64,000 bases of DNA from Prochlorococcus sp. AG-402-K14. GTDB taxonomy: Bacteria; Cyanobacteriota; Cyanobacteriia; PCC-6307; Cyanobiaceae. The DNA is taken from the NCBI GenBank assembly GCA_003216815.1, contig QCIG01000001.1, forward strand, positions 1-64,000. The letters run 5' to 3'. The notes beneath the pieces were generated by a model. That model did not search any database, was not told where the DNA came from, and saw only the letters and a list, made by a program, of their open reading frames with translations. This document shows, in pieces, positions 14,171 to 60,147 of the stretch (its first letter is position 1; each line of letters starts with the position of its first letter). A program made the translations under genes and the position numbers.

Positions 14171-14452
14171 ATGGATTGGAAAACATCACTTGATTGGTAT
14201 TGTTCAGGCAACATTCTTGAAAAAGAAGATATTGACCTTTTAGAAAAACATTATCAACAGGTAATCAATGACATCGATTCGAATCTCTCCCCAGAAATAG
14301 CTCCAAAACATATTTGTAACCAAACAAAGATTCCAGAGGGAAGTTCTTGGATCACTGCAGTTGCGGTAATACTTGATCGATTAAATCCGGTAAAAACTGG
14401 TAAACCAAGAAGTTTATTAGTCGATCAACTAAGAAGAAAGCAAAGCAGTTAA
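14171..14452 (+). CDS. GSSWI-family small protein, copy 1
   Basis: The 93-residue protein has an N-terminal helical part with D-x-x-L-L-E, then PKHICNQTKIPEGSSWITAV and VILDRLNPV. The ordered elements (helix, I-C, EGSSWIT, A-x-ILD, NP) recur at 17512, 26405 and 49676, defining a four-member family in this window. It starts 15 bases after the LOG gene, so may be co-transcribed, and its end overlaps the convergent MAPEG gene by 24 bases. Function unknown. Confidence 0.7.
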   Translation: MDWKTSLDWYCSGNILEKEDIDLLEKHYQQVINDIDSNLSPEIAPKHICNQTKIPEGSSWITAVAVILDRLNPVKTGKPRSLLVDQLRRKQSS

Positions 14453-17511: not shown

Positions 17512-17808
17512 GTGACGCCCTCATTAGTTCTAATGGATTATGTAGACAGAAAGACATTGAATAACGAACAACTAGAATATCTCGAGCAAGTTTTAAAAGC
17601 ATCAATTCAGAAATTGAAATTCACTGGTATCGAACCTGTAATTGCTAATAATGAAATATGTGATGCAGCACTAATTTCCCAGGGTTCCTATGAAATAAGT
17701 TGTATTGCGTCCATACTTGATATGCTTCAGCCAACAGAAAAAACAATGGAGCGCAAAAAAAAGGTATTCAACGCTCTATGCAATGCAGGTTTAATAGTTA
17801 CTGATTAA
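17512..17808 (+). CDS. GSSWI-family small protein, copy 2 (divergent)
   Basis: The 98-residue frame (GTG 17512; ATG 17533 is an alternative) has the family order: L-x-x-EQLEYLEQVL, a P-x-I segment, ICDAALISQGSYEISCIASI and LDMLQPT. Here GSSWIT has become GSYEIS, so it is the most diverged of the four (14171, 26405, 49676). Function unknown. Confidence 0.62.
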   Translation: MTPSLVLMDYVDRKTLNNEQLEYLEQVLKASIQKLKFTGIEPVIANNEICDAALISQGSYEISCIASILDMLQPTEKTMERKKKVFNALCNAGLIVTD

Positions 17809-17921: not shown

Positions 17922-18455
17922 TTATTTAGCAGCTTCAGGCGCTTTTCTGGCTTTGCGTGCACGTCTAGCAGGTCTACCAGCACTTGGCTTAACAACTGCA
18001 GAATCCTCTGCTTTAGCTTTGGCTGCAGCCTTTTTAGCTACTGGCTTTTTAGCTACTGCTTTCTTTGCTGTTGCCTTTTTAGCTACAGCCTTTTTAGCTA
18101 CTGCTTTTTTAGCTACTGCTTTTTTAGCTGTGGTTTTTTTTGCCGCAGCTGCTTTTGGAGCAGAGCCTTTACGTGTGCGGTGAGAGAGAATTAAAGCCCA
18201 TTCATCAGCGCTAATATTTGCTGGCTTATTTCCATGAACCTCAGAAACTTTAGCTGCTTTTTCAATATCTTTAATTAGGTTTTTCCAAGAAGCTGCGTAA
18301 CGTTTATCAGACTGAGATTTAGCACCACTTTCAACAAGGGTTTCAACGACTTGAGAAGCAGTAACCTTCTTACGACGTCTGTTAAAGATCTCCTTTTGCA
18401 AGGTAGCAATCAAGGCATCACCTTTAGCACTAACTTTGATGGATAACTGAGACAT
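17922..18455 (-). CDS. Histone H1-like DNA-binding protein, copy A
   Basis: The 177-residue protein has a conserved N-terminal domain (about 1-100) with basic segments RRRKKVTASQVVETLVESG and SWKNLIKDIEKAA, then a Lys/Ala tail of tandem KKAVAKKAVA-type repeats (about 105-155) and an AT-hook-like end GRPARRARK. Such tails are typical of bacterial histone H1-like proteins that compact DNA. The paralog at 28871-29458 is nearly identical in the N-terminal domain but has diverged in the repeat tail. Nucleoid binding is an inference from composition. Confidence 0.75.
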   Translation of the reverse strand: MSQLSIKVSAKGDALIATLQKEIFNRRRKKVTASQVVETLVESGAKSQSDKRYAASWKNLIKDIEKAAKVSEVHGNKPANISADEWALILSHRTRKGSAPKAAAAKKTTAKKAVAKKAVAKKAVAKKATAKKAVAKKPVAKKAAAKAKAEDSAVVKPSAGRPARRARKARKAPEAAK

Positions 18456-24186: not shown

Positions 24187-24344
24187 GTAATTACGAATGT
24201 ACCTTTCTCAATTAGTGAAAAAGAAACATATATCCATATCTGAAAAGTTCTAGCAAAGAGAGATTAAAGTTAAAATAAAGGAATGAATCAATAAAAATAC
24301 TCTTAAATTCTCAGAAAAACTAAAATGCTATTTGCTTTAATCAG

Positions 24345-25262
24345 TTGGAAATAATTTTTCTATTAGCTGAATTAATACCATGCCTCTTAATAGGCTATTT
24401 ACTCGGACGATTTAAAAAAGATTTATCCCTAACGATTTCTCGTCCCCTTATTAGCTATGGAATTCCTATCAGCTTGATGGGGATATTACTTAAGTCTGGC
24501 CTTGAATTACCTTTAATAGAATCTGCTGCATTAGCATTGGTAGCTATTGGCTCTTTAATGACTATGTTAAATAGTTTTCCTGGTCTAAAGAACCTTATAC
24601 CAAACAGAACTCTTCAATTAGGTAGCGCATTTGGGAACACAGGGTATTTCGGAATACCAGTTTCACTAGCACTGATTCCAGATCATGCTTTGATTTACAG
24701 CATAGGTTTTGACCTTGGTGCGACATTAGTAATTTGGAGTATCGGGCCACTATTGCTAACAGATCCTTCAAAAGAATTAAGTTCTAATAAATATTGGAAG
24801 AATTTCATAAAGGCAATATTTAACAGCCCTGCTGTAAAAGGATTGATTGGCGCATTAATTGTTCATTCATCTCCATGGGATGAACAATTAACAGCCTTAT
24901 TATGGATACCTTCAAGGGTTGTAATTGTTTTAGCACTAGTAATCGTTGGAATGCGTCTAAGTTGGCTGAGGAAAGAGAATCTCTCAAGAATAAAAATCCA
25001 AATAATCTCCATAAAAAATGCTTTAATCATGAAACTGGTTGGATTGCCAATCATAATGTTGATCATTTCCTCAGCAATCAGATTACCTAACGTCATGCGA
25101 GAGGCTTTAGTGCTTCAATCAGCTGCACCAACCGCAATATCTGTCTTACTAATATCCCAAGCAGCGTCCAGAGATGAAGAGGAAGCAACATCTCTTGTTG
25201 CCTTAAGTACGATCATCACACTAATATCAATCCCTGTTTGGTTGATGATTTTAAGATTGTAA
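24345..25262 (+). CDS. AEC-family permease (auxin efflux carrier/malate permease type)
   Basis: The 305-residue protein has about ten hydrophobic segments and AEC features such as GIPISLMGILLKSG, AFGNTGYFGIPV and a C-terminal QSAAPTAISVLL. AEC proteins move organic anions such as malate or related compounds in bacteria. The in-frame start appears to be TTG 24345; an ATG 18 bases upstream is out of frame. Alone in its transcript as far as can be seen. Confidence 0.85.
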   Translation: MEIIFLLAELIPCLLIGYLLGRFKKDLSLTISRPLISYGIPISLMGILLKSGLELPLIESAALALVAIGSLMTMLNSFPGLKNLIPNRTLQLGSAFGNTGYFGIPVSLALIPDHALIYSIGFDLGATLVIWSIGPLLLTDPSKELSSNKYWKNFIKAIFNSPAVKGLIGALIVHSSPWDEQLTALLWIPSRVVIVLALVIVGMRLSWLRKENLSRIKIQIISIKNALIMKLVGLPIIMLIISSAIRLPNVMREALVLQSAAPTAISVLLISQAASRDEEEATSLVALSTIITLISIPVWLMILRL

Positions 25263-25325
25263 AAAGTTAACAACTATCGCCTTTTAACTCAGTTTGTCTA
25301 AGTTGTAAGAAATACAATTTTTTTA

Positions 25326-25526
25326 ATGACCTCAGCTACAGCAACAAAAGCGACAGCAAAGAAAACAGCGGCAGTAAAATCATCAGCAGTAAAATCTCAA
25401 TCAATTTATTCATCAACGCAATCTAGATTTGCCAGTTCAAAGCTAATTCAAAACCTAGGTTCATCTAATGATGGGGTTCAGTTCGATTTTTCAAGTTCGT
25501 TAAGAACTGCTTTTGGTAGGGATTAA
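25326..25526 (+). CDS. Small Lys/Ser/Ala-rich protein
   Basis: The 66-residue protein starts with a Thr/Ala/Lys repeat like the histone-like tails (KATAKKTAAVKSSAVKS) and ends SSSLRTAFGRD. It precedes the chain of microprotein genes by six bases and may head that operon. DNA binding is possible but unproven. Confidence 0.6.
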   Translation: MTSATATKATAKKTAAVKSSAVKSQSIYSSTQSRFASSKLIQNLGSSNDGVQFDFSSSLRTAFGRD

Positions 25527-25532
25527 AAGAAT

Positions 25533-25628
25533 ATGGACCTTTTAAAAACACTGTTTACAGTTGTCATATGTCTAGGTATTGGATGGGCAATCTCTAAAGG
25601 GATTATGTTTGGTTTGACTCATATTTAA
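25533..25628 (+). CDS. 31-residue membrane microprotein
   Basis: ATG 25533 opens a frame with one helix (LFTVVICLGIGWAIS). One base separates its stop from the next ATG. It is part of the overlapping gene chain 25533-26360. Confidence 0.55.
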   Translation: MDLLKTLFTVVICLGIGWAISKGIMFGLTHI

Positions 25629-25629
25629 T

Positions 25630-25794
25630 ATGCCTGAAGAATGGCATCCTACAAATGAAGAACTTGAAGTCATAGACAGTGCATGGATGAAAGTTAAGCT
25701 TTCATGCGAAAAAATAAAAGAGCAAACAACTGCAACTGAAAAATATAATTCAAATATGCTTAACGAAATAGCAGATCATTATCAAGAAAATTAA
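25630..25794 (+). CDS. WxP-family small protein
   Basis: The 54-residue protein reads MPEEWHPTNEELEVIDSAWM, sharing the WxP-x-x-x-E/Q-x-x-I opening with 25794, 59932 and 60753 but lacking their CP motif. The stop shares one base with the next ATG (TAATG). Confidence 0.6.
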   Translation: MPEEWHPTNEELEVIDSAWMKVKLSCEKIKEQTTATEKYNSNMLNEIADHYQEN

Positions 25795-25985
25795 TGGCTA
25801 AAGAATGGGAACCAAAAGAAGAACATCAAGCTGTTATTGCAAGGAGTATAGAGTTTATTTCTGATGAATTAGCTGAGTTACAAGAGGCTTTACACTGTCC
25901 AAATTCATTTATTGTTGAAATAGCTAATAGGGTAATATCTGAATATAAAACAAATCAAATCATCATTAGAAGAGATGAAGAATAA
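25794..25985 (+). CDS. WxP/CP-family small protein
   Basis: The 63-residue protein has EWEPKEEHQAVIARSIEF, SDELAELQEALHCPNSFI and a helical tail. The paralog at 59932-60147 shares WSPSQKQ, ELAELQ and L-x-CP-x-x-FI. All-helical soluble protein of unknown role. It overlaps its upstream neighbour by one base and abuts the next. Confidence 0.68.
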   Translation: MAKEWEPKEEHQAVIARSIEFISDELAELQEALHCPNSFIVEIANRVISEYKTNQIIIRRDEE

Positions 25986-26105
25986 ATGGAATTTCTGCAA
26001 TCACATGATATAAACCAATTGGGTCTTTGGACACCTCTTATTGGAGGTATTCTTCTATACGTTGGCTTAAATCTAAAAATCACTGAAGTTGATCCTAATG
26101 AGTAA
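25986..26105 (+). CDS. 39-residue membrane microprotein
   Basis: The ATG follows the previous stop directly (TAAATG). The frame has one helix (LWTPLIGGILLYVGL). Part of the chain. Confidence 0.5.
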   Translation: MEFLQSHDINQLGLWTPLIGGILLYVGLNLKITEVDPNE

Positions 26106-26172
26106 TAATGAAATTAAAAATGAATCCAACGATAAGAAAAAGTTCAATTGTAAGAATTGCAGTTTGAGATGA
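26098..26172 (+). CDS. 24-residue CKNC microprotein, low certainty
   Basis: The frame begins inside the end of the previous gene and reads MSNNEIKNESNDKKKFNCKN, ending CSLR. Its stop overlaps the next ATG as ATGA. Both junctions suggest coupled translation, but the product is tiny and could be chance. Confidence 0.3.
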   Translation: MSNNEIKNESNDKKKFNCKNCSLR

Positions 26173-26360
26173 AACAAGGAACTGTTGAACTCATTTTTTT
26201 TGCTCTGATTTTCTTGAGTCTTCAATTTTGGTGGATAAGGATGACAATTAAAAATGGTCGGACAGGAGAAGTAGATAAATGGGGGCAAAAAACAAATCAA
26301 AAAAAGCTAAATGAATTGGAGAAAGCGAAGCAAGATTTAGAAAAACTTTTTCGATCTTAA
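26169..26360 (+). CDS. Single-TM protein with coiled tail
   Basis: From ATG 26169 the 63-residue protein has a membrane helix (LIFFALIFLSLQFWWI) and a charged helical tail (NELEKAKQDLEKLF). It resembles 15211-15417 in design. An upstream TTG is in frame but less likely than the ATGA junction. Confidence 0.62.
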   Translation: MKQGTVELIFFALIFLSLQFWWIRMTIKNGRTGEVDKWGQKTNQKKLNELEKAKQDLEKLFRS

Positions 26361-26404
26361 TTTTCGATAGTACTAAAACTCATTAAATAATGAACTATTA
26401 AATT

Positions 26405-26692
26405 TTGCTTGAAAGCTACGCTGCTGGTGAAGATATTAATAAAGACGAACTATCATTACTAGAATTAGAACTTGATTCTCAACTAGATTCTATTAAGTTT
26501 TCTCGCACTCAAGGTTGCACAGAAAAAGCGTCAAAACACATATGCGAGGCTGCTCAAGTATGCGAAGGTAGCAGCTGGATCACATGCTTTGCTTCAATAC
26601 TAGATAAGGCCAATCCCCTTTCTCATGGGAATAAATCAAGAGGAGCAAAAGTCATTGATGCACTTCTAGATAACAATTATTTCATGAATTAA
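26405..26692 (+). CDS. GSSWI-family small protein, copy 3
   Basis: The 95-residue frame (TTG 26405) has ELSLLELELDSQLDSI, KHICEAAQVCEGSSWITCF and SILDKANPL, the clearest match to 14171-14452. It follows the microprotein chain by 44 bases. Function unknown. Confidence 0.68.
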   Translation: MLESYAAGEDINKDELSLLELELDSQLDSIKFSRTQGCTEKASKHICEAAQVCEGSSWITCFASILDKANPLSHGNKSRGAKVIDALLDNNYFMN

Positions 26693-26751
26693 ACAAGGGA
26701 AAAAAATTATCAATTCATTCTTAATAGACACATTATTATCAAACAAATCCA

Positions 26752-26961
26752 ATGAACAACAGTGAAAGTCGTGAACAGAGGAAAAAGCGTTTTAAAAGTC
26801 TTTCAAGTGCAGAAAGAAAAATGTTGATCAGAAAGAAACTAGAACTACAAGGTTTAACAGAGGGAAGCGGTGTGAGGGAAAAGGATCAATCTTCTTACGA
26901 CAAGCAAGAAATAATAGATTTAATTCTATTAACAAGATGTTTTCAAAAGAATAATTTTTAA
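26752..26961 (+). CDS. Small basic helical protein
   Basis: The 69-residue protein starts with a charged region (SREQRKKRFKSLSSAERKML) and ends with a helix and a single Cys. No family recognised. Confidence 0.55.
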   Translation: MNNSESREQRKKRFKSLSSAERKMLIRKKLELQGLTEGSGVREKDQSSYDKQEIIDLILLTRCFQKNNF

Positions 26962-27015
26962 TAACTCATCCAATCAAAATTTGTTTTACGAAATTAGTGC
27001 CTGCAAAATGGGCAT

Positions 27016-27219
27016 ATGAATAAACCTATTAAAAAAAAGAAAATTACCTTTGCAAGGTTTGCTGTTCGTACTCTTGCTATTTCTGCAAGCACCCTCGCTC
27101 TATTTGATTTTCTTAAAGGAGACTATCAAGCTGGAGGGCTTCTGGCACTTGGATGGTTAGCAATCGTGATCGGGGAGAAAAGAATGTTTAATGGGGAAAA
27201 GACAAATGAAGAAATCTAA
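27016..27219 (+). CDS. Two-TM small protein
   Basis: The 67-residue protein has a Lys-rich start and two short hydrophobic segments (TLAISASTLALFDFL and AGGLLALGWLAIVIG). Function unknown. Confidence 0.6.
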   Translation: MNKPIKKKKITFARFAVRTLAISASTLALFDFLKGDYQAGGLLALGWLAIVIGEKRMFNGEKTNEEI

Positions 27220-27356
27220 GAAAATTTCCAACTGTTAACTATCAATAAATAGATCTACAAAATCCATTCATCTTTTATTCGCCATGCCACCATAAAAAAG
27301 GTAATAGTAAATAACTCTTTAAATATTGATGCAATTTAGTCCAACCCTACAGTTCT

Positions 27357-27617
27357 ATGAGTGAGACCAAAAAAAATAAGAACTTCAATCTGACAGAAAT
27401 GAAGTTCAATTTTAATGATCTTTTTACTGGAATTGCTTTGCTGTTGTGTGCATTTTTATGTGCGTTTAGCCTTGCACTAATTGCAATAAGATTAGGACCA
27501 ATAGCTAAATGGGCTAATTATCAGACTATTTGCGTCGAACAGGAAAGTTTGAAATCTCCAATCGAATGGGCAGTACGTAAATGCAATGGAAGGTCAAAAG
27601 TTTATCAAGTGAAGTGA
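27357..27617 (+). CDS. TM-anchored two-Cys protein with CNGR motif
   Basis: The 86-residue protein has one strong helix (about 21-44), then ICVEQ and a C-terminal VRKCNGRSKVYQ. 57806-58027 has VCIGQ and QRCNGRN in the same places, so the two are paralogs with a likely disulfide outside the membrane. Function unknown. Confidence 0.65.
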   Translation: MSETKKNKNFNLTEMKFNFNDLFTGIALLLCAFLCAFSLALIAIRLGPIAKWANYQTICVEQESLKSPIEWAVRKCNGRSKVYQVK

Positions 27618-27708
27618 GAGGCAACTCAATTAAAGTTGAGTTTAGATTTTTAATAATTCAGATGATCACGTTTTCTTAAGAAGCAATAACATCAAATCAA
27701 TTATTTGC

Positions 27709-28870: not shown

Positions 28871-29458
28871 CTAAGCTTTTACAGCTTTAGAACTAACTTT
28901 TCTTGCCCGCCTCGCAGGTCTGCCTGCTACAGCCTTAGATGTTCTTTTAGAAACTGATTTGGCGGTTGAAGTTGCTTTTTTAGCTTGAGCAGAAGCTACT
29001 TTCTTAACTGCGGTCTTAACCTTAGAAGTCTTAACTTTTGCTTTTGAAGCACTCTTAGCTTGAGCAGCTTTAGTTACTGCTTTCTTTGCAATTGCTTTTT
29101 TAGCTGCAGTTTTTTTGACGGCTGTCTTTTTAGCAGATGGTTTTGCGGAGACCTTCTTAGCACTTGAGGACTTACGAGTACGGTGAGAGAGAATCAAAGC
29201 CCATTCATCAGCACTAACATTTGCAGGTTTATTACCATGGATCTCGGAAACTTTTGCAGCCTTCTCAATATCCTTTATTAAGTTTTTCCAAGAAGCAGCA
29301 TAACGCTTATCAGATTGTGACTTAGCCCCACTCTCTACAAGAGTTTCAACAACTTGCGATGCTGTTACTTTTTTTCTTCTTCGGTTAAAAATTTCCTTTT
29401 GAAGAGTAGCGATCATGGCTTCGCCTTTAGCGCTAACTTTGATACTTAATTGAGACAT
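28871..29458 (-). CDS. Histone H1-like DNA-binding protein, copy B
   Basis: The 195-residue protein keeps the N-terminal domain of 17922-18455 almost unchanged (RRRKKVTASQVVETLVESG, SWKNLIKDIEKAA) and has a longer Lys/Ala/Ser tail (KKTAVKKTAAKKAIAKKAV) ending GRPARRARK. The strong N-terminal conservation with a drifting tail suggests that the N-domain does the specific work and the tail packs DNA. Upstream is a perfect 24-base palindrome at 29519-29542. Confidence 0.75.
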   Translation of the reverse strand: MSQLSIKVSAKGEAMIATLQKEIFNRRRKKVTASQVVETLVESGAKSQSDKRYAASWKNLIKDIEKAAKVSEIHGNKPANVSADEWALILSHRTRKSSSAKKVSAKPSAKKTAVKKTAAKKAIAKKAVTKAAQAKSASKAKVKTSKVKTAVKKVASAQAKKATSTAKSVSKRTSKAVAGRPARRARKVSSKAVKA

Positions 29459-49675: not shown

Positions 49676-49960
49676 ATGTCTTTAGAACTTACAGAATTAG
49701 TCAAAGATTTTGTAGCAACAAAACTCCTCTCAAAAGTTGAACTTGATTTCTTAGAGAGTGAACTGTGGGAAACCCTCGAGCATATCGATGAAATAACTTC
49801 CTTAACCTCAGCTCCAGTCAATATTTCTAAAGAATTGGAATTAAAAGATGGTTCATCATGGCAATTATGTTGTGCAGTAGTACTTGATGCTGCCAGACCC
49901 CAGAAAAACTCTCGAACAAAAAAACTTAAAAAATTAATAGAAAAATTTTCTCTCCAATAG
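49676..49960 (+). CDS. GSSWI-family small protein, copy 4
   Basis: The 94-residue protein has VKDFVATKLLSKVELDFLES, then ELELKDGSSWQLCCAVV and LDAARPQK. GSSW and the V/ILD-x-x-x-P pattern are kept, while the I-C element is altered to NISKE. It belongs with 14171, 17512 and 26405. Confidence 0.62.
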   Translation: MSLELTELVKDFVATKLLSKVELDFLESELWETLEHIDEITSLTSAPVNISKELELKDGSSWQLCCAVVLDAARPQKNSRTKKLKKLIEKFSLQ

Positions 49961-59665: not shown

Positions 59666-59929
59666 TTAAGAGGTCTCCCATAATGGTTTCTTAGAAACTT
59701 CCCATTCTGTTTCCACTGAAGACTTCCATAGTTCTCTTGCTTTTTCATAAGTTAACTTCTCACTTTCATGCAACTGAACATGAGGAGTAATACCGTTTAG
59801 GAACATGAGCCTGCAGCTAGCGTAGTGAACCCTTATGTATTTAGTTCCGTCTTCATCAAGGTGTTTGTCTTTAAAAAACCTCATTGCCCAGGCACGATCT
59901 TTTTTCACAAGCCAACTTTCATTTTGCAT
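59666..59929 (-). CDS. DUF1651-like protein, diverged
   Basis: The 87-residue protein has ESWLVKKDRAWAMRFFKDKH and KLTYEKARELWKSSVETEWE, resembling 54802-55035 in the WLL/RF start and A-x-ELW end. Two bases separate it from the upstream gene. Function unknown. Confidence 0.62.
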   Translation of the reverse strand: MQNESWLVKKDRAWAMRFFKDKHLDEDGTKYIRVHYASCRLMFLNGITPHVQLHESEKLTYEKARELWKSSVETEWEVSKKPLWETS

Positions 59930-59931
59930 TT

Positions 59932-60147
59932 TTAGTAGGAGCTTGGATTATCTCTTTTATGCTGCCTTGCCTTTGAATGACAACTATCTGTTGACCAACG
60001 ATTTTTAATAACTTCAAGAAAGTCACATATGAATTCATCTGGGCAATCAAGTTCATCCTGCAATTCAGCTAATTCATTAATAAAGTATTCGAATGTTCTA
60101 CTTATTAATCCTGACTTTTGCTTTTGGGACGGACTCCATTTGTCCAT
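59932..60147 (-). CDS. WxP/CP-family small protein
   Basis: The 71-residue protein reads MDKWSPSQKQKSGLISRTFE, NELAELQDELDCPDEFICD and a basic tail. ELAELQ and CP-x-x-F match 25794-25985. It is the first gene of a pair with 59666-59929. Confidence 0.66.
   Translation of the reverse strand: MDKWSPSQKQKSGLISRTFEYFINELAELQDELDCPDEFICDFLEVIKNRWSTDSCHSKARQHKRDNPSSY

Follow-up and report, generated by a model that had tools for sequence, protein, structure and literature searches.

We identified a run of short genes in a Prochlorococcus genome that we lean slightly towards reading as a short operon of uncharacterized picocyanobacterial microproteins, with one mRNA, translational coupling and a joint role in the membrane for two of its products, m1 and m4. 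Naming the ORFs o0, m1, s2, s3, m4, c5, m6 and g7 in 5′ to 3′ order, all on the forward strand, we find that five of them (o0, m1, s3, m4 and m6) are real microprotein genes under purifying selection. Outside the clade of closely related loci, what persists is the o0-m1-m4 module alone, complete in one other genus and partial elsewhere.

The stretch of DNA analyzed here (the window, 64,000 nucleotides) comes from a Prochlorococcus assembly of 1.65 Mb in 64 contigs that is 85% complete. Its GC content is 0.31-0.38 along its length, and the named records that match it are Prochlorococcus single-cell genomes. A DNA search of 60 genomes yielded 26 loci, that of the window included, which span the region in full with 85-100% identity; their clade is presumably the low-light LLI group. 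Counts of intact genes and of synonymous events refer to these 26 syntenic loci, with synonymous changes counted on the tree, and the presence of homologues was scored across 151 genomes of the family. For s2 and c5 the intactness comparison of the 26 loci replaces counts of frame-breaking indels, as those from the pN/pS run are inflated by shared gap columns. Elsewhere in the window, two lysine/alanine-rich proteins are encoded on the reverse strand, one (17922-18455) with a sub-threshold match to the histone H1-like HC2 family and the other (28871-29458) with an S/A/K-rich tail and no Pfam match.

The run opens with o0 (25326-25526), a gene overlooked by the original prediction that ends 6 nt ahead of m1 and encodes a 66-aa soluble microprotein rich in A, T, K and S. 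It is intact in all 26 loci, shows 59 synonymous events where 26 are expected, and has homologues in 47/151 family genomes. The other two core genes encode single-helix membrane microproteins: m1 (25533-25628, 31 aa) is intact in 26/26 loci with 34 synonymous events (13 expected) and a between-clade pN/pS of 0.04, and m4 (25986-26105, 39 aa) is intact in 25/26 with 37 events (14 expected) and a between-clade pN/pS of 0.16. s3 (25794-25985), a member of a multi-copy family, encodes a 63-aa soluble microprotein and is intact in 25/26 loci (51 synonymous events, 27 expected); its AF2 model predicts, at moderate confidence (pLDDT 77), a hairpin of helices 9-33 and 38-55. The 63-aa product of m6 (26169-26360) consists of an N-terminal membrane helix and a charged, probably helical tail. 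This gene is intact in every locus (46 synonymous events, 26 expected), and its homologues, found in 58 of the 151 genomes, lie mostly at other genome positions. Hydropathy gives one helix apiece in m1, m4 and m6. Paralogues of s3 are found at about 98 kb and at 59932-60147 on the reverse strand, the latter lying 2 nt upstream of an 87-aa ORF (59666-59929, reverse strand).

The original prediction described a chain of five or six coupled microprotein genes, and the coordinates and junctions it gave were all confirmed in the window sequence. m1 is followed by s2 after 1 nt (25628/25630), s2 and s3 overlap by one base (25794, TAATG), s3 and m4 abut directly (25985/25986), m4 and c5 overlap by eight bases (26098-26105), and c5 and m6 overlap in ATGA (26169-26172). 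With o0 counted, the longest run of linked ORFs (co-directional ATG ORFs of at least 20 aa, joined within 10 nt) has seven members, compared with a maximum of five, reached in 2 of 60 dinucleotide shuffles of the window; the length of the chain is beyond chance. As a set of genes the chain held up for m1, s3, m4 and m6, which are real and selected, and not for s2, which appears to be decaying, or c5, which is not a conserved gene. The neat alternation of membrane and soluble products that had been proposed disappears because these two ORFs drop out.

s2 (25630-25794, 54 aa) is full length in 10/26 loci, and in 3/26 it is full length and also has an ATG, GTG or TTG start. When aligned to the window frame, 13/26 loci have in-frame stops, and pN/pS within the main clade is 0.97. 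Against a profile of the s3 family s2 scores 13.7-18.6 bits, where the best of 1,200 shuffles scores 9.2, and it is therefore most likely a decaying s3 paralogue. COG6_N (20 bits, cut-off 27) was considered as the family of s2 and not believed.

The 24-residue product with a CKNC motif that was suggested for c5 (26098-26172, in the m4-m6 spacer) has that length in the window genome alone, the other 25 having 18-20 aa. c5 was rejected as a selected peptide, since its 9 synonymous events show no excess over the 10.9 expected, and the spacer that holds it is among the fastest changing (distance 0.196). It is probably just spacer. At least 18 open codons are kept in 26/26 loci, with no earlier stop in any present-day genome, and one stop-making change is reconstructed where ~3.6 are expected (Poisson P ~0.13 for one or fewer and ~0.03 for none), only a hint that c5 might act as a ribosome-bridge ORF.

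The m1/s2, s2/s3, m4/c5 and c5/m6 junctions all involve non-conserved ORFs. Efficient translational coupling has been reported for spacings of −4 to +3 nt (PMC12548453), and the −1, 0 and +1 nt spacings of the unit fall inside this range. Unlike those coupled pairs, the junctions that stand out most in the unit, those of −8 and −4 nt, include an ORF without coding constraint; because c5 is not conserved, these overlaps join nothing conserved. The spacings that are kept are those of o0/m1 (+6 nt in the 26 loci, in the more diverged locus L053 and in G118, a genome of another genus) and of s3/m4 (0 nt wherever s3 is intact among the loci, and in L053). Both pairs have the stop-to-start spacing of a coupled operon, about −4 to +10 nt and kept in relatives. 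We propose that ribosomes terminating and reinitiating where stop and start lie 0 to ~10 nt apart would keep the output of neighboring products in step.

A single mRNA would start in the conserved noncoding gap before o0 (25263-25325), a candidate promoter or 5′UTR of the operon on the forward strand. Among the 26 genomes this gap has the lowest mean pairwise distance of all segments (0.038), compared with 0.15-0.20 for the remaining three gaps and spacers. It is not recognizably conserved in G118, G062 or G145, and a search of 24300-27700 with Rfam, which included the gap, returned no gathering-level match.

At the 3′ end, a GSSWI-family gene does follow the chain as predicted, but its start had been placed wrongly. 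The frame of g7 (26390-26692) has 100 codons from an ATG at 26390, the site at which it opens with MNYQI in the 25 other genomes. In the window genome alone, codon 4 (26399-26401) is TAA where the rest of the 26 genomes have CAA, and this nonsense codon may be a real mutation or a draft assembly error. An ancestral stop blocking the ATG start was rejected, since none of the other 25 genomes shares the stop; translation in the window could restart at TTG 26405. g7 is full length in 23/26 loci (one, L022, stops 7 codons early and another, L026, has a frameshift), with 100 synonymous events against 52 expected, and its AF2 model is confident and all-helical (pLDDT 86). Homologues occur in 50/151 family genomes, and genomes in the clade of the window carry as many as four copies; further paralogues in the window lie at 14189-14404, 17533-17787 and 49700-49942. 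Downstream of g7, small conserved genes of 69, 67 and 86 aa (26752-26961, 27016-27219 and 27357-27617) keep their order in L053, and the last of them is among the most constrained (pN/pS 0.05-0.07).

Gene order in close relatives was one of the points on which the original prediction was to stand or fall. The order is kept in the close clade and not in more distant relatives: o0-m1-s3-m4-m6 is common to the 26 close loci, with s3 broken in one, and persists in L053 (~72% DNA identity) without an s2 ORF or g7, and with an 18-codon ORF between m1 and s3. G029 has intact copies of o0, m1 and m4 alongside a broken s3 and a broken m6, and no g7 was found there. G118 has o0-m1-m4 with gaps of 6 and 7 nt and no s3 between. 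In G007, which belongs to the same GTDB genus as the window, m1 adjoins m4 at a distance of 11 nt and m6 is about 14 kb away. The core is itself separable, because m1 has been lost from the o0-m4 pairs of G062 and G145. Outside the clade of the window, m6 and g7 are unlinked to the core. In G066 a gene of the s3 type ends 1 nt before m4 and resembles the window paralogue at 59932-60147 more than it resembles s3. The surrounding locus, L106 (4401-5600, reverse strand), of another genus, contains three further short ORFs, one of them with a hydrophobic helix, followed by the s3-family gene and m4.

These arrangements suggest an older core of o0, m1 and m4, that is, one soluble peptide and two single-helix membrane peptides, which in the clade of the window would have come to hold s3 and its decaying relative s2 between m1 and m4, with m6 and g7 after. 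They also bear on a different account, to which we assign a fair chance short of even: the genes may share a neighborhood without sharing a function, with small genes piling up in variable regions of a streamlined genome, deletion of spacers packing them together, and the products acting independently. Relatives of m6, g7 and s3 are scattered in other genera, and for each of s2, s3, m6 and g7 there are genomes in which the gene is broken or absent. Among the 89 pairs that the six families form in 11 closed genomes from other genera, 39 are separated by no more than 30 kb, where random placement would give 3.7. The size of this excess is not to be taken literally, since these genomes share ancestry and the null simply places genes uniformly; the families lie near each other, in an order that differs between genomes. 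Against independence of the products, the o0-m1-m4 core holds together across changing flanks: a Mem_trans transporter gene precedes the unit in the window, L029 and L053, and in G118, G062 and G145 this gene was not found upstream of the core or near the unit.

Under the operon reading, m1 and m4 might form a working pair in a membrane, modulating a larger complex or serving it as small accessory subunits; their partners on the soluble side would perhaps be the helical s3 protein and the m6 tail. A joint membrane function of the products is a plausible proposal. Against this reading, none of the families matched a known membrane complex in Pfam, NCBIfam or PDB sequences. Neither Pfam nor NCBIfam gave an above-cut-off match, only weak ones, for any microprotein family or g7, PDB sequences gave nothing credible for the families, and a fold search with the AF2 models of g7 and s3 returned no PDB match at E≤0.001. 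We searched for a phage origin among 50,697 phage records, where tblastn matched none of s3, m6 and g7 and blastn returned no distant match to the region; PHROGs gave one weak match, of g7 (E 0.0017), to a family of unknown function. Text searches of the literature found nothing specific on these genes.

The size class of m1 and m4 (31-39 aa, one helix) is that of PsbT, PsaM, PetL, PsbL and PsbJ (PMC5126843). That they are diverged forms of known small photosynthetic subunits (Psb, Pet, Psa, Ndh) is nevertheless very improbable: no such match was found in Pfam or NCBIfam at E≤1 or among PDB sequences, and detectable homologues are present in 26/151 (m1) and 24/151 (m4) family genomes, where near-universal presence would be expected. 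Patchiness of this kind (24-58 of 151 genomes across the families, unlike core photosynthetic subunits) also counts against the operon reading. Short single-helix peptides beside soluble partners, families of paralogues and the decay of s2 recall toxin-antitoxin pairs, and a toxin-like role of the membrane peptides would explain expansion, shuffling and decay. To this we give scarcely any credence, since m1 and m4 are strongly conserved between clades and are retained in genomes with a broken s3 or none, and Pfam and NCBIfam hold no match.

We class the unit as an operon of uncharacterized microproteins, a kind of operon already known, because its architecture resembles that of psbEFLJ and because many unannotated small ORFs are known in Prochlorococcus. 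Like the unit, the cyanobacterial psbEFLJ operon consists of closely spaced single-helix membrane peptides (39-44 aa), and in Synechocystis psbF, psbL and psbJ are 9 and 32 nt apart (PMC5126843); the unit differs in having no Psb sequence match, in including soluble partners and in its patchy distribution. A study of Prochlorococcus MED4 reported 113 new ORFs of 33-130 aa (PMC2518516), which like the genes here are short picocyanobacterial protein genes that annotation tends to miss. That study lists single ORFs of one strain, whereas the present genes form a conserved multi-gene unit.

A broader proposal, which we offer as rather doubtful, is that microprotein families shared among picocyanobacteria are repeatedly assembled into short, tight trains in the same chromosomal neighborhoods, exchanging partners, and that non-conserved short ORFs within the trains serve as ribosome bridges and not as products. 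The trains in question are o0-m1-(s2)-s3-m4-m6-g7 here, o0-m1-m4 in G118, and the three small ORFs with the s3-type paralogue and m4 in G066; the possible bridges are c5 and the 18-codon ORF of L053.

The analysis yields a short list of microprotein genes under selection in a very abundant photosynthetic organism, with a core retained in part by another genus and by a distant member of the window's own genus, and it singles out the ORFs of the run that do not merit further work. Annotation easily misses small membrane proteins of this kind, and their gene neighborhood is among the few clues to their partners.
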